A stretch of DNA of 64,000 nt, taken from Paenirhizobium daejeonense. Lineage in GTDB: Bacteria; Pseudomonadota; Alphaproteobacteria; Rhizobiales; Rhizobiaceae. Positions 41,408 to 53,465 of this stretch are shown piece after piece; position 1 is the first letter of the stretch; each line of letters starts with the position of its first letter. The translations under genes and the position numbers were made by a program. The notes beneath the pieces are model-generated. The model worked only from the letters and a program-made list of their open reading frames with translations, had not been told where the DNA came from and did no database searches. Where the stretch lies: positions 124,001 to 188,000 of the forward strand of contig NZ_JACLAL010000002.1 of the NCBI RefSeq assembly GCF_014280875.1, given 5' to 3'.

Positions 41408-41779
41408 TTAGCGGCAAAGTTTGCAGATGAAGTTTTCGGCTTCTACGACCGCAGCCGCAACGGCTGCGATGGCGGCCGGTTCGTTACCACGAGCCTCCAC
41501 CTCGGTCGCAGCGACGACGACAGCATGGGCGCCAACAGCGTTCGCCGCATTCTTCAAGCGCACGGCGATGGCCTCGCGGGTCTCGATGCTCGCCGGATTG
41601 CCGAAGGCCTGCAGGCAGCCGCGGGCCTGGCGTGCGAACATCTGCAATACTTCCATTTCGAGTGCCTTGTCGCCCTTGGTCTGCTTGGCAAGGTGGACCA
41701 GGTCGATCGGACGGTTTTGAGAGGGGCAACGCCCGCCGGAATTCTCGGGGGCTTCGAATGCGATATTCAGCGCCGCCAT
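41408..41779 (-). CDS. Hpt-domain-like protein lacking the phospho-accepting histidine
   Basis: A 123-residue helical protein. The stretch ALEMEVLQMFARQARGCL followed by AIAVRLKNAANAVGAHAVVVAATEVEA fits a four-helix histidine phosphotransfer (Hpt) bundle, in which the canonical site reads A-H-x-L-K-G-A-A. Here the position of the histidine is Val73. A role as an inactive phosphorelay modulator or a diverged adapter is possible, but the family assignment rests on pattern only. AAAAGGAAAA precedes the ATG. It ends 174 bp upstream of the ferredoxin start on the same strand and is divergent from the giant coiled-coil gene. Confidence 0.6.
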   Translation of the reverse strand: MAALNIAFEAPENSGGRCPSQNRPIDLVHLAKQTKGDKALEMEVLQMFARQARGCLQAFGNPASIETREAIAVRLKNAANAVGAHAVVVAATEVEARGNEPAAIAAVAAAVVEAENFICKLCR

Positions 41780-42261: not shown

Positions 42262-45200
42262 ATGGCGAACAACAAGACGGTCGAGTCGATTGACGACAGC
42301 GCGTTCCAGGCTCTCGAAGCGGCCCTGAGGATCGACTTCGACGAAGAAGAGAAGCCCGCGTCGAAAACCCGGCCGACGCCACACGCACCGGAGGCAAAAG
42401 TGTCCGAGTCCAATACCCCGCGCCCCGCTGCTGCACAGAAACAGGCGGAGCGACGGAGCGCGCGCGCCGGAGAGCTTGCTCCCGAGCCAGCGCCCAAGGC
42501 TCCCTCTTTCGAACCGGCCAACGATGCTTCGCGTCGCAGTCCCGCAGCGATCATGAAGTCGCTGGAAGGCGCCTCGATGCGCTCGGCCATCCGCAATGCC
42601 GCGATTGTCTCGGCGCTGTGGGTTATTGCCGCGATCGGTCTTTCCCAGCTTCTCTACGGCAGCCAGATCTGGCAGGCACCGACGGTGGCCGACGTCGTTG
42701 CCATGCCGGGCGTCGTCGCGATCGTGATCGGCACGATCATCCCCGTTCTTCTGTTCTTCGCATTCGCCATCATGATGGCCCGCGCCCACGACCTGCGAAA
42801 CGCCGCCCGCTCCATGGCGGAAGTGGCGCTGCGTCTTGCCGAGCCGGAAACCATCGCCTCCGAACGCATCATGACAGTCGGACAGGCCGTTCGCCGCGAA
42901 GTTTCCGCCATGAACGAAGGCATCGAGCGCACGATCGCCCGGGCAACCGAACTCGAAACCCTCGTCCACTCGGAAGTAAGCGCGCTGGAGCGCAGCTACA
43001 CGGACAACGAACTGCGTGTCCGTGGCCTCGTCCATGAACTCGGCTCCGAACGCGATGCGATCGTCAATCACGCCGAACGCATTCGCACCTCCATCGTCGG
43101 CGCCCATGAGCAACTGAAGGAAGAGCTTTCGCTCGCGACGGAAGAAATTTCCGTACGTCTGGCGACATCGGGCGAAGCCTTCGCATCCCTGATCGACACC
43201 CGTGCCGCCGCTCTGATGGAGAAATCCGACCAGGCTGCCAGCGCCATCGGCACCCTGCTCGCCGCCAAGACGGAAAACCTTGTCCAGACCCTGAGCGCTT
43301 CAGGCATTTCGCTCGCAAGCGAATTCGACACGCGCCTCAACCAGCTCACCGGTACGCTGGCCGAACGCGGACGCGAACTGCTCGGCGAGTTCGAGACCCG
43401 CGCGTCCTCGCTCGACGCCAATACTGAAAAGCTGAATGCAGCACTGAGCGAACGAGCACGCCAGCTCAACGAGACCCTGGTCGAAAGAACCCGCGAAATC
43501 GCCGAAAAGCTGACCACTGGCGAACAGGGCATCACCAATTCGCTCGGCGATGCACTCGCCAAGCTCAATGCCAGCCTCGACGAAAAGGGCCAGACCTTCC
43601 GCCAGAGCCTGCAGTCCAGCGTCGACGACGCGATCGTCGATCTCGACCTGCGTTCCGGCCTCTTCGAGGACCGTCTCGAGGCAACCATCGGTCAGGTCAA
43701 CACGGCATTCGACGAGCGCGTAGCGGAATTCGCCAGCGCCTTCGACCAGCGCGCCGGTTCGCTCGACAGCAAGCTCATGGAGAGCCTCGCCCGCATCAAC
43801 GAGACCGTCAGCGGCGGCTCTGAGGCAATCGACGGCATCCTCAGCTCCAGCATCGACCGGCTGGGCTCGACGATCACCGACCAATCCTTCGCACTGGCGA
43901 CCGCCGTTGGAACCGGGCAGGAACTCATCGACTCGGCGCTCGCCAACCGCGCGCAGGAAATCGCGGATGCCATGTCGGCGCGCGCCCAGGCGCTCACGGA
44001 AAGCCTCGAGAACGCCCAGCGCCGCATTGACGCTGTCATGGAAGAACGCGGTGGCGCACTCTATAACGCGCTTGCCGACAACCAGTCCCGCTTCGACGAG
44101 ACGCTTGCGAGCCGCGCAGAGACGATCATCAACGCGCTGTCCGGCAACCAAGACCGCTTCGCCGAAACGCTTGACACCAAGAGCCGTGAAATCGCGCAGA
44201 CCCTGGCTGAAGGTCAGGCCCGTCTGGACGAAACCTTCGACGGTCGCGCGGAGGCGATCGGCCTTGCACTTTCGCTCAACCACGACCAGCTCTCGGAAAC
44301 GCTCGAAGCCCGCAGCCGCGAAATCGCCCAGACGCTCGCCGACGGTCAGGCTCGTCTCGACGAGACCTTCGACGGCCGCGCGGAAGCCATCGGTCTTGCG
44401 CTCTCGCTCAATCACGACCAGATCGCAGAAACGCTCGAAACCCGTAGTCGCGAGATCGCCCAGACGCTCTCCGAAGGCCACGCACGTCTCGACGAAACTT
44501 TCGACGGTCGCGCGGAAGCCATCGGCCTTGCGCTTTCGCTCAACCACGACCAGATCGCAGAGACGCTCGAGACCCGTAGTCGCGAGATTGCGCAGACGCT
44601 GGCCGAAGGCCATGCCCGGCTCGACGAAACCTTCGACGGCCGCGCGGAAGCCATCGGCCTTGCGCTGTCGCTCAATCACGACCAGATCGCAGAGACGCTC
44701 GAGACCCGAAGCCGCGAGATCGTGCAGTCCATGTCCGAGGTTAAGGCAAGCCTTGACGAGAGCTTGGACGCCCGCAGCCGCGAGATTGCCCGTACCCTTT
44801 CCGAGGGACAGGCGCGTCTCGACGAAACGCTGGACGGTCGCGCGACCGCATTCGTGGAATCGATCAGCGGAACCGAGACCCGGCTCGCGGAAACGCTCGA
44901 TCGTCGTACCAGTGCAATCGTCGAGACCGTTGCCGAAGCCGACCGGCGCCTCGAAGCCACCTTCGCCGACAAGGCGGAAACGATCCGCGCGGCCTATGGC
45001 GAGCAGCAGGAGCAGCTCGACATGGCATTGGCAAGCCATACGTCCTACCTCAGCTCCACGCTGGAGGAAGCGGGCAACCACATCGAAAAGGCACTGGGCG
45101 AAGGATCAGGCCGCATCGGTCAGGCCCTGAACACGGTGCTCACCGATATCGGTCAGACCCTCTCCTCGGGCATCTCCGACATCGACGGCAAGCTCTCCGA

Positions 45201-48200
45201 CACCCATGAGCGAATCCGCTCGACGCTGGACGACCGTAGTAACGCCATCAACCTGGCGCTGAACGACGCCCGCAATCAGCTGGAAAGCACGCTCACCGAG
45301 CATGGCGCCTCCTTGGGCGCATCGCTTGCCGCCAGCGCCGGCATGCTCGAAATGACGCTTGAACAGCGCGAGGAAGCCCTGCGCCGCTCGATCGACGAAA
45401 GCGGCAAGGCTCTCGACGAACGCCTGCGTGGCACCGCCCAGTCGCTGGTCGGCCAGATCGGCAACGTCGCCGGCGAGATTACCCGCACAGCAGAGGACTT
45501 CTCCGGCCGCGTCGAACAGTCGGTCGGTGGCATGAGCACACGCCTCGACGAGACCAGCGCCCGCATCGAAACGAGCCTCGGCACGCTAGAAGACCGTATC
45601 CGCAACGGCCTGGACGGTGTCGACACCCGCGTCGCCGATGCCGGAGAGATCTTTGCCGCCAAGCTGGCCGAGAAGGTTTCCGATATCGAGAAGGTTGGGA
45701 CCGAGGCCGCCGAACGCGTCTCGCGCATCCTCGAAGAAGGCACCAACCTTGTTGCCCAGACCTTCGAAGGCCGCACCGCCCAGATTGATGAGCGCCTGTC
45801 CACCATGGATCGGGCCCTGAACATCGGTCTCGACAACGTCAACCGCACCATCGAAGGCAAGGCTGCCGGCCTCGCCACCACGCTGCGCGGCGCCGTTTCC
45901 GACGCCGCCCGCGAACTCGACGCCGAGGCACAACGTTCCGTCGACCTGCTCAACCAGAGCGGTCAGCAGTTTGCCGAGCGGATCGGCGAGCGAAGCGCCG
46001 AACTCAGCCGCGCAGTGGAAGAACGGTCCGAGGATCTGGCAAACCGCATCGCCGAGACCCAGAGCCGCCTCGCCGGTCAGGCTGCTTCGGTCGCTCAGAC
46101 CTTCTCCGAAGCCGGCGACATCATCGCCAACAAGGTTGCGGAAGCCGAGACCCTCGTAAGCAGCCAGATCCAGGCGCTTTCGGGCACCCTCTCGGAAGCC
46201 GGCAACACGCTGGAAACCCGCGCGGCGGCAATCCGCGAAGCGCTGGCCGGCAATACGGAGGAACTGGCGCAGACCATGAACACGGTCGACAAGGCGCTGG
46301 AAGCTCGCGGCAACTCGATCCGCGCAGTCCTCGACGAACGCACCCGCGAACTCAATTCGATGCTCGCCGGCCGTTCCGCCGAACTGTCGCGCCTGATCGA
46401 TGAGAAGGCGACCCCGGTCATTGCGGAATACGCAGAAACCGGCCGCGCTGCAGCCGAGCGGATCACCGAGGCCGCCCGTATCAGCGCCGAGCGCCTGCGT
46501 TCCGAAAACGAGGCCGTTGTCGCTGCAATCAGCGAGCGCGCGGACAAGGCAGTCGAGGCTCTGGGTACCGCCGAGAGCAGCATTGCAGAAAGCGCGGGTC
46601 GCCTTATCCAGCGGCTTGGCGAAAGCAATACCGGCCTCGCCGGCATGATCGAACAGGTCGCCACAAACATCGTGGCGGCAGACAGCCAACTCGGTCAGAC
46701 CACGGAACGGTTCGCCGAAGCATCGTCCAAGGCTGCCGACCTCATCTCGACCTCCAGCCGACTGCTGGATGGCAAGCTCGAGCGCCTGTCCTCGATTTCC
46801 GACGACACGCTGTCGCAGGTTACCGCCATCGTCGGCCGCTTCAGCGATCACTCCAAGGTCCTCGGCCAGGCATCCGACCTCCTGTCGGCCGCCCAGTCCA
46901 ACCTTGTCGGCACGCTTGAGGATCGCCAGCAGGCGCTGCGTGATCTGGCCGTCGGTCTGGTCAAGCGTTCCGAGGAGATCGAAACGACGATGCAGGGTCT
47001 GACCAACATGGTCGAATCCGCCTTCGAGCGCGCCGAACAGCGCTCGGGCCAGGTCGCGGGTAACCTGCGCCAGAGCATCCAGATGTCCTTTGCCGATATC
47101 GGCAAGATCCTGTCGGAGACCGAAAAACAGGCCAACGCCACGGCCGGCAGCATGCGCAACGCGCTGCTTTCTGCTGGCGAAGAGGCCAACCAGTCGATCG
47201 AGAAAACCCTGTCGGAAGCCGAAAAGCGTTCTGCCGATCTCGCCGATCGTCTGCGTGGCGGCCTCACCGCTTCGCTCTCCGACGTGGACAAGCTGCTCGG
47301 CGAAGCCGGACGCAAGTCGGATGGTGCTGCAAACCACCTGCGCGAAGCCCTTCGCCAGTCGGTCGAGGAAGCCGTCAGCCGCTTTGCCGGCGCAACAGAC
47401 GAAATCCGCCGCTCGGCCCAGGATATCCGCAAGGAACTCGACCTCACCCGCAGCGAGCTGAAGCGTGGTGCATTCGACCTGCCGGAAGAGGCCAAGGAAA
47501 GTGCCGCGGCCATGCGGCGTGCCGTTTCCGAACAGATCAAGGCGCTGCAGGATATCTCCCAGCTCGTAGGTCGCTCGACCCAGTCGCTGGAAATCTCCGA
47601 GCCGGTCGCACGTCGCCTCGCGGAAGCTCGCCCGGCCGAACAGCCGCGTCGGGCAGCCACACCGACCCCTGCCCCGCAGCCTGCACCTGTTCCGGCACCC
47701 GCGCCGGTCCAAGCGCCAGTCCAGGCACGTGCCACCGAGCCACTCGGCCTGCGTGGCAGCCTGAACGCCACCCAGGCGCCGGTGCCCGCACCGGCTCCGG
47801 CCCCGGCTGCCCGTCAGGAAACCGGCGGTTGGATCAGCGACCTGTTGCGTGGCGCATCGCGTGACGAGGAACACGGAATGGCGGCTCAGCAGCCGGCCCG
47901 TCCCGCAGCACCGGCTCGCCCGGTGGAACAGCCACCCATACAGCAACGGCAGGCGGATAACCGCAATCCGCGCCACATGGTCGAATCGCTGAACTCGCTC
48001 TCCGTCGATATCGCTCGCGCTATCGATCACGATGCCTCCGTCGAGCTCTGGCGGCGTTACCAGCGCGGCGAACGCGACGTCTTCACCCGTCGCCTCTACA
48101 CGCTGAAGGGCCAGCAGACCTTCGACGAGATCAAGCGCAAGTACGACCGCGAGCCGGAATTCCGCACCGCTGTCGACCGCTACATCAACGACTTCGAAAA

Positions 48201-48318
48201 GCTGCTCGCCGATGTCGCCCGCACCGACCGCGACAAGAGCGTCACGCAGTCCTACCTGACCTCGGATACGGGCAAGGTCTACACCATGCTCGCCCACGCC
48301 GCCGGACGCTTCAGCTAA
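42262..48318 (+). CDS. Giant membrane-anchored coiled-coil protein, GPR (growth pole ring)-like
   Basis: A 2018-residue protein. Order: acidic N terminus (1-35); Pro/Ala-rich linker (36-95); two membrane helices (about 113-132 and 149-171); a huge helical region (about 180-1780) built of SLxxRxxEIxxxLxxGxxxLxxxLxxR-type repeats resembling apolipoprotein-like coiled coil; a Pro/Ala-rich linker (about 1793-1900); and a conserved C-terminal domain from about 1905 (VESLNSLSVDIARAIDHDAS ... VYTMLAHAAGRFS). Size, topology and context match the Agrobacterium growth pole ring protein, which organises polar peptidoglycan growth. Residues 634-809 are four near-identical 44-residue repeats. The ATG has GAGG upstream. 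Confidence 0.82.
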   Translation: MANNKTVESIDDSAFQALEAALRIDFDEEEKPASKTRPTPHAPEAKVSESNTPRPAAAQKQAERRSARAGELAPEPAPKAPSFEPANDASRRSPAAIMKSLEGASMRSAIRNAAIVSALWVIAAIGLSQLLYGSQIWQAPTVADVVAMPGVVAIVIGTIIPVLLFFAFAIMMARAHDLRNAARSMAEVALRLAEPETIASERIMTVGQAVRREVSAMNEGIERTIARATELETLVHSEVSALERSYTDNELRVRGLVHELGSERDAIVNHAERIRTSIVGAHEQLKEELSLATEEISVRLATSGEAFASLIDTRAAALMEKSDQAASAIGTLLAAKTENLVQTLSASGISLASEFDTRLNQLTGTLAERGRELLGEFETRASSLDANTEKLNAALSERARQLNETLVERTREIAEKLTTGEQGITNSLGDALAKLNASLDEKGQTFRQSLQSSVDDAIVDLDLRSGLFEDRLEATIGQVNTAFDERVAEFASAFDQRAGSLDSKLMESLARINETVSGGSEAIDGILSSSIDRLGSTITDQSFALATAVGTGQELIDSALANRAQEIADAMSARAQALTESLENAQRRIDAVMEERGGALYNALADNQSRFDETLASRAETIINALSGNQDRFAETLDTKSREIAQTLAEGQARLDETFDGRAEAIGLALSLNHDQLSETLEARSREIAQTLADGQARLDETFDGRAEAIGLALSLNHDQIAETLETRSREIAQTLSEGHARLDETFDGRAEAIGLALSLNHDQIAETLETRSREIAQTLAEGHARLDETFDGRAEAIGLALSLNHDQIAETLETRSREIVQSMSEVKASLDESLDARSREIARTLSEGQARLDETLDGRATAFVESISGTETRLAETLDRRTSAIVETVAEADRRLEATFADKAETIRAAYGEQQEQLDMALASHTSYLSSTLEEAGNHIEKALGEGSGRIGQALNTVLTDIGQTLSSGISDIDGKLSDTHERIRSTLDDRSNAINLALNDARNQLESTLTEHGASLGASLAASAGMLEMTLEQREEALRRSIDESGKALDERLRGTAQSLVGQIGNVAGEITRTAEDFSGRVEQSVGGMSTRLDETSARIETSLGTLEDRIRNGLDGVDTRVADAGEIFAAKLAEKVSDIEKVGTEAAERVSRILEEGTNLVAQTFEGRTAQIDERLSTMDRALNIGLDNVNRTIEGKAAGLATTLRGAVSDAARELDAEAQRSVDLLNQSGQQFAERIGERSAELSRAVEERSEDLANRIAETQSRLAGQAASVAQTFSEAGDIIANKVAEAETLVSSQIQALSGTLSEAGNTLETRAAAIREALAGNTEELAQTMNTVDKALEARGNSIRAVLDERTRELNSMLAGRSAELSRLIDEKATPVIAEYAETGRAAAERITEAARISAERLRSENEAVVAAISERADKAVEALGTAESSIAESAGRLIQRLGESNTGLAGMIEQVATNIVAADSQLGQTTERFAEASSKAADLISTSSRLLDGKLERLSSISDDTLSQVTAIVGRFSDHSKVLGQASDLLSAAQSNLVGTLEDRQQALRDLAVGLVKRSEEIETTMQGLTNMVESAFERAEQRSGQVAGNLRQSIQMSFADIGKILSETEKQANATAGSMRNALLSAGEEANQSIEKTLSEAEKRSADLADRLRGGLTASLSDVDKLLGEAGRKSDGAANHLREALRQSVEEAVSRFAGATDEIRRSAQDIRKELDLTRSELKRGAFDLPEEAKESAAAMRRAVSEQIKALQDISQLVGRSTQSLEISEPVARRLAEARPAEQPRRAATPTPAPQPAPVPAPAPVQAPVQARATEPLGLRGSLNATQAPVPAPAPAPAARQETGGWISDLLRGASRDEEHGMAAQQPARPAAPARPVEQPPIQQRQADNRNPRHMVESLNSLSVDIARAIDHDASVELWRRYQRGERDVFTRRLYTLKGQQTFDEIKRKYDREPEFRTAVDRYINDFEKLLADVARTDRDKSVTQSYLTSDTGKVYTMLAHAAGRFS
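44161..44688 (+). repeat. Four tandem 132-bp coding repeats inside the GPR-like gene
   Basis: Units begin at 44161, 44293, 44425 and 44557, each 44 codons, and share the core RLDETFDGRAEAIGLALSLN plus REIAQTL. A fifth, diverging partial unit begins at 44689. Nucleotide identity is high between copies, so recent duplication or recombinational homogenisation is likely and copy number may vary between strains. Confidence 0.88.
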
Positions 48319-48352
48319 GCCGCTGACACCAGCAAAGGCAGAGATAGACAAC

Positions 48353-48391
48353 AAAGCCCCCGGAGCCAGTCAGGTTCCGGGGCTTTTCTTT
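48353..48391 (+). terminator. Rho-independent terminator after the GPR-like gene
   Basis: AAAGCCCCCGGA pairs with TCCGGGGCTTT (one bulged C) and is followed by TTCTTTT. Confidence 0.8.
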
Positions 48392-49276: not shown

Positions 49277-49897
49277 TCAGAGCTGCGTCAGCGTCCAGTC
49301 AATGATCTCCGTGGTCACCTGACCGAAGGCGCGATCCATCGCGCGGATGTAAACGTCATTGGTCGAGCCGCCGGTCGGCACCGATGCGCTGAACGCTCGT
49401 TGGGCCTTGACTGTGCCGTTGCGGTCGTTGAGCAGCTTGGCCGAAATCTCGACCACCGCGCGGTCACTGCCGCTGGCGTCGATCTCGAAGGCGCGAATGT
49501 CGGTGATCAGTTGATAGTCGATGGCAAGCCCCTGCCCGGGCGTTCCGACGCCACCGAGCTTGCCGGTGTTCTCGAAGGCTTCCACGAGCTTCGACTGCAC
49601 CATGCGGCTCAGCTTGTCGCTCCACTGGGCATTGGAGAGATAACGGATTTCGGATCGCGAGACACGAACCAGCACTTGTTCGCTGTCGACCGCCTTGAGG
49701 GCAGAGGGGTCCGCGACCAGCAATTGCCTGTTGCGCGCCGAAGCAAATGTTTCGCTCTTCGGTGACGCCGACAGATCGAACGTGTCGTTCTTCGCCGCCG
49801 AACTGCAGGAGCTGAGCCCGCCCATGGCAACCGGCAGGACGATCGCCGCTGCAAGAAGCCCGATCCATCGACGCGCCACCGTACCGCATACCATCAT
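49277..49897 (-). CDS. Mla-type auxiliary lipoprotein (ABC-type transport auxiliary, PqiC-like)
   Basis: A 206-residue lipoprotein with signal peptide and lipobox GLSSC. The mature part fits the ABC-transport auxiliary lipoprotein family (DLSA, QLLVADPSALKAVDSEQVLVRVS, IRYLSNAQWSDKLSRMVQSKLVEAFENTG, VVEISAKLLND, then TTEIIDWTL at the end). It is last in the mlaE-mlaF-mlaD-lipoprotein operon and probably links the transport complex to the outer membrane. The ATG at 49897 with an AAAGGA region upstream gives the signal peptide; a frame extension overlaps mlaD. Confidence 0.85.
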   Translation of the reverse strand: MMVCGTVARRWIGLLAAAIVLPVAMGGLSSCSSAAKNDTFDLSASPKSETFASARNRQLLVADPSALKAVDSEQVLVRVSRSEIRYLSNAQWSDKLSRMVQSKLVEAFENTGKLGGVGTPGQGLAIDYQLITDIRAFEIDASGSDRAVVEISAKLLNDRNGTVKAQRAFSASVPTGGSTNDVYIRAMDRAFGQVTTEIIDWTLTQL

Positions 49898-49929
49898 GTC
49901 AGCCCTGTCCTTTTGGCCTTCGATCATCA

Positions 49930-51300
49930 TTATCGCCGAGTCCGTCCGTCATATTGCTTGACGTTTTCACCGCCGAAAATCAACCGCTGCGGGTCGCGAT
50001 CGAAGTTGGTGATCGCGTCGTTGAGGTCACGCATGGTCTGCCGCGTATCGGTGACGAGCGACTGGATATCCCTGAGGCCGCCATTGGAAAAACGAGCGAG
50101 ATTGTCGGCGATCGGAGTGATCCGTGCATTTAGGTTTTCAGCCATGACGCGAATGGACTCCAGCGTCTTGCGTGCTTCGGCCGTCAGCGAACTCGTGTCG
50201 TCCGAACCGAGAATGCCGTCGACCTTCTTAAGGATACCGTCAACCCGCTCGGAAGCATTGTTCAGCTTGTTGGCGAGCTGGGTGAAATCGGTGATCGCCT
50301 GATCGATGTCCTGCCGACGGTTGGTGACGCTCTGGCTGAGATCCTTGAAGCCGGAAATGGCAGTGCGCGCGTCCGCAGCCGCCACGGAAACATCATCCAC
50401 GACCCGTCCCACCTTCTGGGTGTCGATCGCATCGACCAGCGCGGTGACTTTCGTCAGCGTCTGGTCTGCATGCACCCCGAACTGCTGGAAGGTCGACGCG
50501 GTCTCCTTGAAGCCGTCGATCGCCGGCGCAATCTTCTTGGATGCCTCGGCAAAATTGGCGGTCGCTTCCTGCGTATTGGTCAGGATCTTGTCGATCTTTT
50601 CTGAATTGAGCGACCTGAACAGGTCCTCGGCTGCGGAAAGTGTCGAGTCGAGCCGTCCCGAGAGACCGGACACGGAGGTGGACAACGCGCTGACGCTCTC
50701 CAGGAACTTGTCGATGCCATCGGCATTGTCGGCAAGCGCCTTGGAGAAGGTCTCCGCATTCTTCACCGTATTGGTGAGCGGCACTCGCGAATCCTCGATG
50801 AAACCCTGCAATTCGCCGATAGCGCCATTTGCCCGCTGCAGGATCTTGTCCGCTGTCGCAAGCAGGTTGGTCACACTCGACTGGTCGGCGATGAGGACGG
50901 CCGGTTCACCGGTCGCGATCGCTTTCTCCAGAATATTCTCGCCGCCAGCATTGCCGCCGGAAAGCTCGATATAGGCGGCGCCGGTCAACCCCTGGATTTC
51001 AAGCACGGCCTTAGTGGAACTGGAAACTGGTGCATCGGCCCGCACCTCGGTGAAGGCGACGGAGAATTGTGGGTCATCCTTGTCGATGTAGAGATTGCGC
51101 ACGGAGCCGACCGCGATACCGTTGAACCGGACGGGCGAGCCGATACTCAAACCATTTGCCGAGCCGGGAATCCGGATGGCAAGCGGCGCAACCGGACCGC
51201 CGCGACCATATTCCGCCATCCAGTAGACGAAACCGAACGCCGCCGCGATGACGAGCACTGTGAAAAAGCCGACGATGGCATAATTGGCTCTGGTTTCCAT
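49930..51300 (-). CDS. mlaD: MlaD-type MCE-domain lipid transport protein
   Basis: A 456-residue protein with an N-terminal membrane anchor (about 8-28), one MCE/MlaD domain (about 40-120, beginning VAPLAIRIPGSANGLSIGSPVRFNGIAVGSV) and a long C-terminal helical region (about 150-430) with coiled-coil repeats. It binds phospholipid in the periplasm and receives it from, or passes it to, the MlaFE ATPase-permease. Single-MCE proteins of this length are typical of rhizobial Mla systems. It starts 3 bp after mlaF. Confidence 0.9.
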   Translation of the reverse strand: METRANYAIVGFFTVLVIAAAFGFVYWMAEYGRGGPVAPLAIRIPGSANGLSIGSPVRFNGIAVGSVRNLYIDKDDPQFSVAFTEVRADAPVSSSTKAVLEIQGLTGAAYIELSGGNAGGENILEKAIATGEPAVLIADQSSVTNLLATADKILQRANGAIGELQGFIEDSRVPLTNTVKNAETFSKALADNADGIDKFLESVSALSTSVSGLSGRLDSTLSAAEDLFRSLNSEKIDKILTNTQEATANFAEASKKIAPAIDGFKETASTFQQFGVHADQTLTKVTALVDAIDTQKVGRVVDDVSVAAADARTAISGFKDLSQSVTNRRQDIDQAITDFTQLANKLNNASERVDGILKKVDGILGSDDTSSLTAEARKTLESIRVMAENLNARITPIADNLARFSNGGLRDIQSLVTDTRQTMRDLNDAITNFDRDPQRLIFGGENVKQYDGRTRR

Positions 51301-51303
51301 AGG

Positions 51304-52125
51304 TCAGTCACTCACCGGATTTTGAGCCGGGGCTGCCGGCCTCTCAATGGAACGGGCGCGCTTGCCCCTGAAATACGACCTCACCCATGCATCGTCGCAG
51401 GCAAGCATATCGTCTAAGCTTCCCTCGACCAAGACCCGCTTCTGGCCCAGCACGGCGATGCGGTCACAGACTGAAAACAGGCTGTCGAGGTCGTGGGTCA
51501 CCATATAGACGGTGAGGCCAAGCGTATCGCGAAGCCGCGCGATCAGTTCGTCGAACTCGGCGGCACCGATCGGATCGAGACCAGATGTCGGTTCGTCGAG
51601 GAAAAGCAGGTCGGGATCGAGCGCAAGCGCACGCGCGAGTGCCGCTCGCTTGATCATGCCGCCGGAAAGCTCGGATGGATACTTGTCCGCCGCATCAGCA
51701 TCGAGACCTACCAGTTCGATCTTCAGATAGGCGAGTTCATCCATCAGCCACTTCGGCAGATCAAGATATTCGCGCATCGGCAACTGGATGTTTTCCTTGA
51801 CCGTCAAGGCGGAAAAGAGCGCGCCGTGCTGGAAAAGCACACCAAGACGCGTATCGAGCGTCACACGCTCGGCCTCTGACACCTTGTCATAATCCGCCCC
51901 GAGGATCTCGATCGTGCCGGAGCGCCGCGGCAGGAGCCGTAACACCGTACGCATCAGCACAGACTTTCCGGCGCCGGAGGCCCCGACGAAACCGAGAATC
52001 TCTCCACGGTAGATATCGAGATTGAGGTGATCGAGCACGACCTTCTCGCCGAAAGCTACCGTCAGGTTGCGCACGGAGAGTACCGCTTCGCGTTCCTGTG
52101 TGACGGGGGGACTATCTGCCATCAT
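51304..52125 (-). CDS. mlaF: MlaF-type ABC ATPase
   Basis: A 273-residue ABC ATPase energising phospholipid transport. Walker A GASGAGKS is at 48-55; signature LSGGM in SELSGGMIKRAALARAL; Walker B LLFLDEPTSGLDPIG; H-loop in YMVTHDLDSLF. Mla ATPases carry the same DEPTSGLDPIGA phrase. It lies between mlaE and mlaD with gaps of 7 and 3 bp. Confidence 0.93.
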   Translation of the reverse strand: MMADSPPVTQEREAVLSVRNLTVAFGEKVVLDHLNLDIYRGEILGFVGASGAGKSVLMRTVLRLLPRRSGTIEILGADYDKVSEAERVTLDTRLGVLFQHGALFSALTVKENIQLPMREYLDLPKWLMDELAYLKIELVGLDADAADKYPSELSGGMIKRAALARALALDPDLLFLDEPTSGLDPIGAAEFDELIARLRDTLGLTVYMVTHDLDSLFSVCDRIAVLGQKRVLVEGSLDDMLACDDAWVRSYFRGKRARSIERPAAPAQNPVSD

Positions 52126-52132
52126 CCCCTCC

Positions 52133-53311
52133 TCAAAAATCGATCGCTGCGTAGAACATGGCGAAAAGCCCGTCCACGAGGATGACGACGAAGATTGATT
52201 TCACCACCGCGGCCGTGACGTGCTGGCCGAGCGATTCGGCGCTGCCACCGACCTTCATGCCTTCCACCGCCGAAACGATGCCGATGATAAGCGCCATGAA
52301 CGGCGCCTTGATCATGCCCGACGCGATGGTCGAATAATCGACCGCATCATGCAAGCGCGTGGTGAAGACATCGAAGGTGATGCCGGAATAGGCCCAGGCA
52401 ACAACGGCAGCACCATAAAGGGCCGCAAAATTGGCGACGATGGTCAGAAGCGGCAGCGCGATTGTCAGCGCAACGAGCCGCGGAAACACCAGCACACCGA
52501 TCGGATTGAGACCGATGACCTTCAGCGCATCGATTTCCTCGCGCATCTTCATCGAGCCTATCTCGGCGGTGATAGCGCTGCCGGAACGGCCCGCGATCAT
52601 GATGGCCGTCAAGAGTACGCCGATTTCGCGTAATTGCAGGATGCCGACAAGATCGACGACAAAGACTTCCGCACCAAAATAGCGGAGTTGGAATGCGCCC
52701 TGCTGGGCGATGATCGCGCCGATCAGGAAAGACATGAGCACGATGATAGGAACAGCCCGCACACCCATGTGATCCAGCTGGTTGACCACTGAGGCGGGAG
52801 AAACGCCGCTACCGCGACCAAGCTTGGTCTGCGCGCCGCGCACCGCCGAGCCCAGCACGAACATCATGGCCACGAAATCCTGCCATAGATCGACCACCGT
52901 CTCGCCAATAGGACTGAAGATACGCTGGAAGAGCGGACCTTTGACGTCGTTCTGGCTCGGCTCGTTCACTTTCTCCGGCATTGCGGCAATGAGTTCCCGC
53001 ATGGCTTCGCTTCCGCCCGTCAAGGCGACGGAAACGCCTTCCGCGTGCTGCCTGGCGACAAACCGCCGGATGAGCCATGCACCCGCCGTATCCATGGCGG
53101 ATACCTGTGAAATATCAATTTCAACGATGCTTTTCTCGCCATCGGCAAGCCGGCCGGCATTGTGCAACATCGCGCCGAGACTGTTGTTACGCCATATGCC
53201 GCGCAACTCAAGCCGCCGCCCTGCCCTGTCGGGCAGATCGTGGACCTCAAAAGACGCGTTTTCTGGATTAACCGGCTTCACTATCCCGACGACTTCTACG
53301 CTTTTGGCCAT
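52133..53311 (-). CDS. mlaE: MlaE permease with N-terminal STAS domain
   Basis: A 392-residue protein. Residues about 25-120 form a STAS domain (IVEIDISQVSAMDTAGAWLIRR), as in the separate E. coli MlaB. After a linker, residues about 140-392 are the MlaE permease with five to six helices and the family phrases GVRAVPIIVLMSFLIGAII, ELGPVL-equivalent QLREIGVLLTAIMIAGRSGSAITAEIGSMK and VKSIFVVILVDGLFAMFY. MlaB and MlaE are fused here. I choose ATG 53311 with GGCGAG upstream over a GTG two codons earlier. First gene of the operon. Confidence 0.9.
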   Translation of the reverse strand: MAKSVEVVGIVKPVNPENASFEVHDLPDRAGRRLELRGIWRNNSLGAMLHNAGRLADGEKSIVEIDISQVSAMDTAGAWLIRRFVARQHAEGVSVALTGGSEAMRELIAAMPEKVNEPSQNDVKGPLFQRIFSPIGETVVDLWQDFVAMMFVLGSAVRGAQTKLGRGSGVSPASVVNQLDHMGVRAVPIIVLMSFLIGAIIAQQGAFQLRYFGAEVFVVDLVGILQLREIGVLLTAIMIAGRSGSAITAEIGSMKMREEIDALKVIGLNPIGVLVFPRLVALTIALPLLTIVANFAALYGAAVVAWAYSGITFDVFTTRLHDAVDYSTIASGMIKAPFMALIIGIVSAVEGMKVGGSAESLGQHVTAAVVKSIFVVILVDGLFAMFYAAIDF

Positions 53312-53465
53312 GCGCACTCGCCGGTGACGGCCGCCTGCGCGAAACTCGAATTCCGTGCAGTATAGCCAGACCGCTGGAGGATGAAATCCTTAACCGGCGT
53401 TAAAGATTGCAAAATTCGGCGAAGCCACAATAAAAACCGATAATGTCTGCCTTTGGGCCGTGGCC

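Follow-up and report, generated by a model that had tools for sequence, protein, structure and literature searches.

The window analyzed here is a stretch of 64,000 nt from Paenirhizobium daejeonense (assembly GCF_014280875.1, contig NZ_JACLAL010000002.1, positions 124,001–188,000), and the gene of interest lies on its forward strand at 42262–48318 (window coordinates). As judged by sequence comparison, the encoded 2018-aa protein is the Ciceribacter ortholog of the polar-growth organizers named GPR in Agrobacterium and RgsE in Sinorhizobium. GPR of A. tumefaciens (Atu1348) has 2115 aa, two N-terminal transmembrane (TM) helices, and PF01442 matches over ~75% of its length, and it forms a polar ring of six foci, 200 nm wide (PMC8262873). 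RgsE of S. meliloti (2089 aa) has been called a GPR homolog and described as a large, membrane-anchored, polar protein with apolipoprotein domains; it is dispensable for growth, and cells without it are misshapen (PMC7327166). The gene in the window is an ordinary member of this known family, and the new element is a family-wide rule of length: our comparisons suggest that the long helical rod of these proteins changes length between relatives almost only by whole helical repeats of 11 or 29 residues. The features of the gene are as follows.

42262–48318, forward strand: gpr/rgsE ortholog, an open reading frame of 2018 aa with an ATG start, over its length 49.8% identical to L166 (A. tumefaciens) and 45.8% to L168 (S. 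meliloti)
42586–42660, forward strand: first hydrophobic segment, about aa 109–133, a probable TM helix (Kyte-Doolittle windows above 1.6)
42673–42795, forward strand: second hydrophobic segment, about aa 138–178, a probable TM helix (Kyte-Doolittle windows above 1.6)
42763–47415, forward strand: rod between two conserved anchors, aa 168–1718, 1551 residues (anchors, composition, phase, and PF01442)
43501–45744, forward strand: 68 consecutive hendecads in one register, aa 414–1161 (ILVMF occupancy per position)
44161–44688, forward strand: four 132-bp units of 44 residues, that is, four hendecads each (tandem-repeat and unit comparison)
46414–46416, forward strand: codon of Pro 1385 in the motif EKAxP, 334 residues before the rod anchor (the lone proline of its zone, as in 115 of 115 Rhizobiaceae rods)
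47659–47961, forward strand: Pro-rich linker, about aa 1800–1900 (15 and 6 prolines per 50 residues)
47959–48315, forward strand: conserved C-terminal helical domain, aa 1900–2018 (62 of 63 genus genomes; column identity; AlphaFold2)

The original prediction for this DNA, made from the letters alone, had described a 2018-codon gene encoding a two-helix membrane anchor, a long coiled-coil rod, and a conserved C-terminal domain, and each of these parts is present: one ATG-started frame, two hydrophobic segments by hydropathy, a rod that we measure at 1551 residues with two prolines, and 119 conserved terminal residues. A search of its own genome with the protein returned one match, itself. A further open frame of 922 codons (45586–48354, reverse strand) lies antisense to it and is probably a by-product of GC-rich repeat codons.

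The proposed kinship with GPR was likewise borne out by the C-terminal domain, hydropathy, PF01442 architecture, whole-length similarity, and upstream gene order. An N-terminal pair of hydrophobic segments is followed by a long helical rod that PF01442 (Apolipoprotein, Pfam) covers nearly throughout, in 11 stretches with an E value of 9.5e-58, and then by a Pro-rich region and a conserved C terminus. L166, a protein from an A. tumefaciens metagenome-assembled genome, and L168, from S. meliloti 4H41, are similar over the whole length, and the genome position is orthologous. A contig scan found at least 535 stretches that encode a relative; among the best 80 of these (92–100% identity), which include L166 and L168 and are hereafter the named loci, 68–75 have folP, DUF922, ferredoxin, and the small open reading frame at 41408 on the same, upstream side, and both L166 and L168 are among them. 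We take GPR and RgsE as orthologs because of the whole-length identity together with the shared upstream genes. The rod of the window protein is shorter than those of L166 (1668 residues) and L168 (1627 residues), and its repeat array differs from that of L166.

The C-terminal 119 aa are present in 62 of 63 genus genomes (the source genome included), in 233 of 249 genomes sampled across the order, and in 64 of 190 sampled across the class, where the proteins are mostly shorter than those of the genus. Mean column identity is 95% over 15 rows, and the domain is 100% identical over 119 aa in two genus genomes, Ciceribacter sichuanensis S101 (G019) and G026. It is predicted to be all-helical (AlphaFold2, mean pLDDT 79.7). 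Foldseek gave no match at an E value of 0.001 or better, the best VIA-align 2 hit (Z 6.1, 77 residues at 3.5 A) is in a range common among helical models, and Pfam has no family for this domain or for the first 181 residues. Outside the order (L202–L204 and others) the domain occurs in open frames of ~700–1100 aa, some longer, a several-fold difference in rod length. Next to the gene in the window lies an Mla-like ABC cluster (49277–53317, reverse strand) encoding an auxiliary lipoprotein (PF03886), MlaD, an ABC ATPase, and the MlaE permease; MlaE/MlaD-like genes occur in 49–50 of the 80 named loci.

The composition of the rod is that of a long, highly charged helix: there is no Trp, the net charge is -100, and ILVMF make up ~24% of aa 191–1760. 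Self-similarity over aa 186–1750 (lags 5–149) is highest at lag 44, followed by 22, 88, and 11. A hendecad has a period of 11/3, and the hydrophobic period averaged over the family is 3.66–3.67 residues in three central zones of the rod. Within the 68 hendecads at aa 414–1161, ILVMF occupy position 4 in 88% and position 11 in 94% but no other position in more than 15%, and position 8 is A, G, or S in 49%. Across windows spanning aa 411–1092 the hydrophobic phase keeps to within 23 degrees; farther out it drifts. AlphaFold2 predicts aa 560–900 as one helix (residues 2–340).

The 132-bp units lie in a tandem array at 44145–44722 (4.4 copies, 86% matches). Their number is as originally described, four, but they had been called nearly identical, which is closer to true of the protein (86–98% identity) than of the DNA (81–90%); pairs of units differ at 13–25 of 132 nucleotides, mostly at third codon positions. 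The diverged repeats said to flank them are real, with a period of 11, 22, and 44 residues through the whole rod. The sister genome G019, whose rod sequence is that of locus L092, differs at 248 of 6057 positions of the gene, and each of units 1–4 finds its best match in the G019 unit of the same number (94–98%), with no more than 90% identity to its own neighbors. Since the units group by position across both genomes, the array predates their split and bears no trace of later homogenization, and we reject the recent expansion or gene conversion that had been proposed for this genome. As a process in the clade it does occur, and a count of the units across related genomes confirmed that copy number varies. 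Rhizobium cremeum W16 (G006, with a rod identical to that of L094) has seven units, of which units 2–7 are closest to each other (95–98%), and G026 has two that are 97% identical. The Agrobacterium vitis group has 88-aa units, and arrays elsewhere in the genus have units of 55, 88, and 132 residues. A second array, of 29-residue units, lies near the rod end in 4 of the genomes scanned; as an example, L057 (G043) carries 3.6 copies at aa 1535–1639 with identity of up to 91% at lag 29.

To examine rod length, we collected 135 proteins of at least 1700 aa from the genus genomes and the named loci and, after removing rods with X and duplicates, obtained 116 distinct rods, from which L095 was dropped after failing the N-terminal anchor. 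A minimum spanning tree connected the resulting 115 rods, and 106 of its 114 edges had a rod identity of at least 60% and were used, the other eight being discarded. These edges contain 257 rod indels, of which 190 are a multiple of 11 residues (11n) and 26 are exactly 29, versus 5 multiples of 11 among 344 indels in the C-terminal part of the same proteins. For the 52 edges with at least 90% identity, all 33 rod indels fall on this grid (26 are 11n and 7 are 29) and none is 10 residues or less, whereas the C-terminal part has 72 indels, 2 of them 11n and 70 of them 10 residues or less. The lengths themselves, read from fixed anchors without alignment, give the same picture: for edges of at least 80% identity the rod length difference is non-zero in 44 and a multiple of 11 in 32 of these, versus 0 of 51 in the C-terminal part. 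The binomial p value for 32 of 44 against 1/11 is 3e-24, with edges that share proteins counted as independent. We could reject an aligner artifact, in which a period-11 sequence attracts 11n gaps, both by these fixed-anchor differences and by simulation, because 297 of 300 simulated off-grid duplications (at 97, 93, and 85% identity) were recovered exactly and none became a false 11n; the simulations stop at 85% identity, and edges of lower identity are less protected.

A single landmark inside the rod provides a further measure. Each of the 115 proteins has exactly one proline in the zone 250–480 residues before the rod anchor, in the motif EKAxP, and its distance to the anchor takes only the values 305, 334, 345, 356, 363, 367, 378, 385, 389, 392, 400, and 407, which in 115 of 115 Rhizobiaceae proteins equals 334+11a+29b. 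The chance that ten distinct positive offsets of up to 73 all fall within a set of 13 is ~5e-10, the set having been defined after the data were seen. This proline is possibly a fixed kink or hinge. Total rod length, in contrast, appears from these sequences to be free, with helical register kept: rods range from 1328 to 2024 residues within the genus. Sixty-six distinct rod lengths were counted. A simple periodogram of all rod lengths has no sharp peak at 11 because 29-residue steps spread the classes; modulo 11, the 116 rods fall into classes 0 (56 rods), 7 (21), 3 (19), 6 (9), 4 (4), 10 (4), 8 (1), 2 (1), and 1 (1). Copy steps of the distal 29-residue array account for many of the lengths that are not multiples of 11. 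Such freedom is absent from the sole control for long coiled coils in general, SMC, whose match spans in 61 genomes are 3420 nt (37 genomes), 3423 nt (23), or 3426 nt (1), that is, 1140–1142 codons (63 genomes were searched, and G036 and G048 were omitted for fragmentary matches), although a protein of constant length is uninformative on step size. Searches of the open-licence literature, which leave supplements and preprints outside, returned no report of quantised rod length, and "repeat" is a word that the main text of PMC8262873 never uses.

We extended the count to 14 further groups of the order (one of them, g3, in the same family) with 73 complete proteins, using single-sided gaps with well-aligned flanks; we excluded the partial L224, the six out-group proteins, two-sided or poorly flanked gaps, and gaps beyond the limits of the rod and the C-terminal part. 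Among 88 rod indels, 69 are 11n, four are 29n (29, 29, 58, and 87), four are 18, one is 7 (the sole rod indel of 10 residues or less), and ten have other sizes (36, 40, and 65 twice each, and 69, 80, 91, and 318 once each), versus 1 of 100 that is 11n in the C-terminal part. The step sizes other than 11n are close to whole helical turns, and only the smaller ones carry weight because nearly every length above ~60 residues can be composed of 7s and 11s. In nine of the 14 groups all rods, or all but one, belong to one mod-11 class despite differing lengths. Group g3 has steps of 29 and 36 among others, and in group g43 (L266–L269) the rod lengths 1387, 1427, and 1467 proceed by a step of 40, which is not the main step elsewhere. 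The rod proline at this place was found in the Rhizobiaceae; in g3 a proline lies at a distance of 242 residues from the anchor, others occur in g85, and the remaining further groups have none in the zone searched before the rod anchor.

The best explanation of these observations, and one that we regard as probably correct, is that the GPR/RgsE rod is a hendecad coiled coil locked in register rather than an absolute ruler. Two hydrophobic helices would fix the protein in the inner membrane, and a hendecad rod of ~1550 residues would lead from there to the C-terminal domain, with the cytoplasmic topology of rod and C terminus taken from published predictions. The counts above show that length is gained or lost between relatives almost only as whole helical repeats (11n or 29, more rarely 18, 36, 40, or 7), often as a unit like its neighbor. 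Several rods may then be packed side by side, parallel and in register, to form a continuous coiled-coil strut within the polar scaffold, with selection preserving the unbroken core (Leu, a small residue, Ile/Leu) instead of the absolute length. If a chain were shortened off the 11/29 grid, it might still self-assemble, but its mixed assemblies with normal chains would be disturbed.

The strongest rival, which we consider possible but rather unlikely to suffice, is that mutation alone produces the pattern. The rod gene consists of tandem repeats that have diverged, in a 33-bp register (87 bp near the end), so slippage and unequal crossing-over would shift whole units, and length would be near neutral. 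On edges of at least 80% identity, 24 of 60 events of size 11n have a DNA identity of at least 0.75 to the neighboring sequence (background medians 0.35–0.58), as do 12 of 13 events of 29 (0.76–0.93), and for 21 of 33 events of the closest pairs the neighbor match ranks in the top 5% when compared with random rod positions. Because gain and loss of tandem units is common, much of the 11n pattern is explicable without selection. However, 16 of the 60 events have less than 0.6 identity to the neighbor, the steps of 18, 29, 36, and 40 misfit a 33-bp register yet are near whole turns, and at 90% identity or above the rod lacks the small indels that dominate the C-terminal part (0 of 33 vs. 70 of 72). 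The absence of small indels, the non-11 steps near whole turns, and the constant register of the core together suggest selection, although either cause would be compatible with the sequences.

The original prediction had offered that copy number could tune a spacing at the growth pole. Such a ruler is in our view improbable; the rod would define a distance at the pole (ring diameter or tip offset), and species would adjust it through the number of units. At 0.1485 nm per residue, the 1551-residue rod would be ~230 nm long. The published ring is 200 nm wide (PMC8262873), and repeats make the length of the rod easy to change. Rod length nevertheless varies between 1328 and 2024 residues in a single genus, unlike that of SMC, while helical register is kept, which weakens the tuning idea and disfavors a strict ruler; a continuous strut may tolerate drift.

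We think it similarly doubtful that the protein is a lipid-handling apolipoprotein, with an amphipathic, lipid-binding rod that is folded back, which is the proposal of the GPR authors. The Pfam profile match and the lipid-transport-like ABC cluster beside the gene speak for it, and the sole PDB sequence matches at an E value of 0.01 or better are to apolipoprotein A-IV (8e-06 and 7e-04). Exchangeable apolipoproteins have a wide lipid-binding face in proline-punctuated 22-mers. The hydrophobic stripe of the rod is narrow, with 2 of 11 positions strongly hydrophobic, and the rod has ~24% ILVMF, no Trp, 2 prolines, and a charge of -100, and the profile matches may follow from the shared 11/22 period. 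The Mla-like cluster was not found within 10 kb downstream in A. tumefaciens (L166), A. pusense (L142), or A. vitis (L100), and the same distance in S. meliloti (L168) and S. fredii (L153) held just a 31–32% ATPase match. As for folding, an alpha-helix rises ~0.15 nm per residue and 1,700 residues would span ~255 nm. The GPR authors argue that 1,700 helical residues would extend 600 nm and hence must fold (PMC8262873, Conclusions); that figure matches a fully extended chain rather than an alpha-helix, and the argument for folding back is weakened to that extent.

Other long helical systems bear some resemblance. Phage tape measure proteins also have a variable number of 11-residue units through duplication, with a mixed 11-11-18 pattern as well, but they carry Phe/Trp markers and set tail length (PMC3271669), whereas the protein here is membrane-anchored and encoded at a chromosomal locus with folate genes. 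We reject a tape measure identity: the PHROG tape-measure profile matches weakly within the rod (aa 1060–1620, E value 1.4e-9), and the neighbors tested (folate enzymes, ferredoxin, DUF922, DUF463/DUF697, and the Mla-like ABC cluster) include no phage tail genes. ZorA of the Zorya system was rejected at 62.6 bits against the NCBIfam cut-off of 190, the best stretch lying in the rod at profile positions 343–504 of 619. SMC arms, like these rods, are coiled coils whose natural lengths come in steps and which function only at certain lengths, but their steps are of ~100 residues on a heptad basis (PMC5344682), whereas here the steps are 11 and 29 and total length is free. DivIVA, Scy, and FilP are hendecad proteins and coiled-coil organizers of bacterial growth or division, in a text in which "hendecad" occurs 12 times (PMC9858780); they are Gram-positive proteins, and we liken the rod to them by description only.

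A register-locked rod may also explain the dominant-negative 20-residue deletions of GPR. Deletion of 413–433 (or 434) or of 1,100–1,120, that is, of 20–22 residues, interferes with wild-type GPR, the small A-IV-4 deletion giving the strongest interference of all deletions in that assay (PMC8262873). Alone, the small-deletion proteins assemble into paired foci, and complementation is significant for A-IV-1cc and partial for A-IV-4cc; mixed multimers are one explanation that the GPR authors offer (PMC8262873). Neither 20 nor 21 residues falls on the 11/29 grid, and the same is true of the domain spans 232–494 (263 residues) and 1,036–1,381 (346 residues). The end points of the small deletions are taken from ranges in the text, and if one of them removes 22 residues the register argument fails for that deletion. 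If the shortened chains matched one another in register but not the wild type, they would, we infer, behave as reported.

Several points weigh against a register-locked rod. The two 20-residue deletions differ in severity, and both the A-IV-4 domain deletion, in both assays, and the off-grid deletion of the 263-residue region still give paired foci (PMC8262873), observations that register alone leaves unexplained. Parallel in-register packing is something that we infer, and the AlphaFold2 model of the rod was made from a single sequence with a mean pLDDT of 72.9. Off-grid "other" rod indels are present at greater divergence, with 4 of 48 at 80–90% identity, 11 of 85 at 70–80%, and 13 of 91 at 60–70%, and five of the 14 further groups (g3, f28, g37, g43, and g85) have no common mod-11 rod class. 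Our control region consists of the Pro-rich linker and the C-terminal domain, and any structured region would be expected to have fewer small indels. Finally, what is gained or lost is usually a unit that resembles its neighbor, and mutation alone could yield much of the 11n pattern.

With these points in mind, we advance the wider form of the register-locked rod more tentatively, at somewhat less than an even chance: GPR/RgsE rods would be register-locked homo-oligomeric hendecad coiled coils across the order, with length changes between relatives that are whole-turn (11n, 29n, and their few relatives); the GPR deletion phenotypes would be largely register phenotypes; and a 22-residue deletion in the same place would be nearly silent.

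In rhizobia and agrobacteria polar growth involves GPR/RgsE, and the length rule bears on how a helix of 2000 residues organizes the pole. It favors a coiled coil that is continuous and in register over apolipoprotein domains that fold back, and it suggests that the deletion phenotypes in the literature may reflect register in addition to domain function. The 66 distinct natural rod lengths provide a series to compare with ring size.

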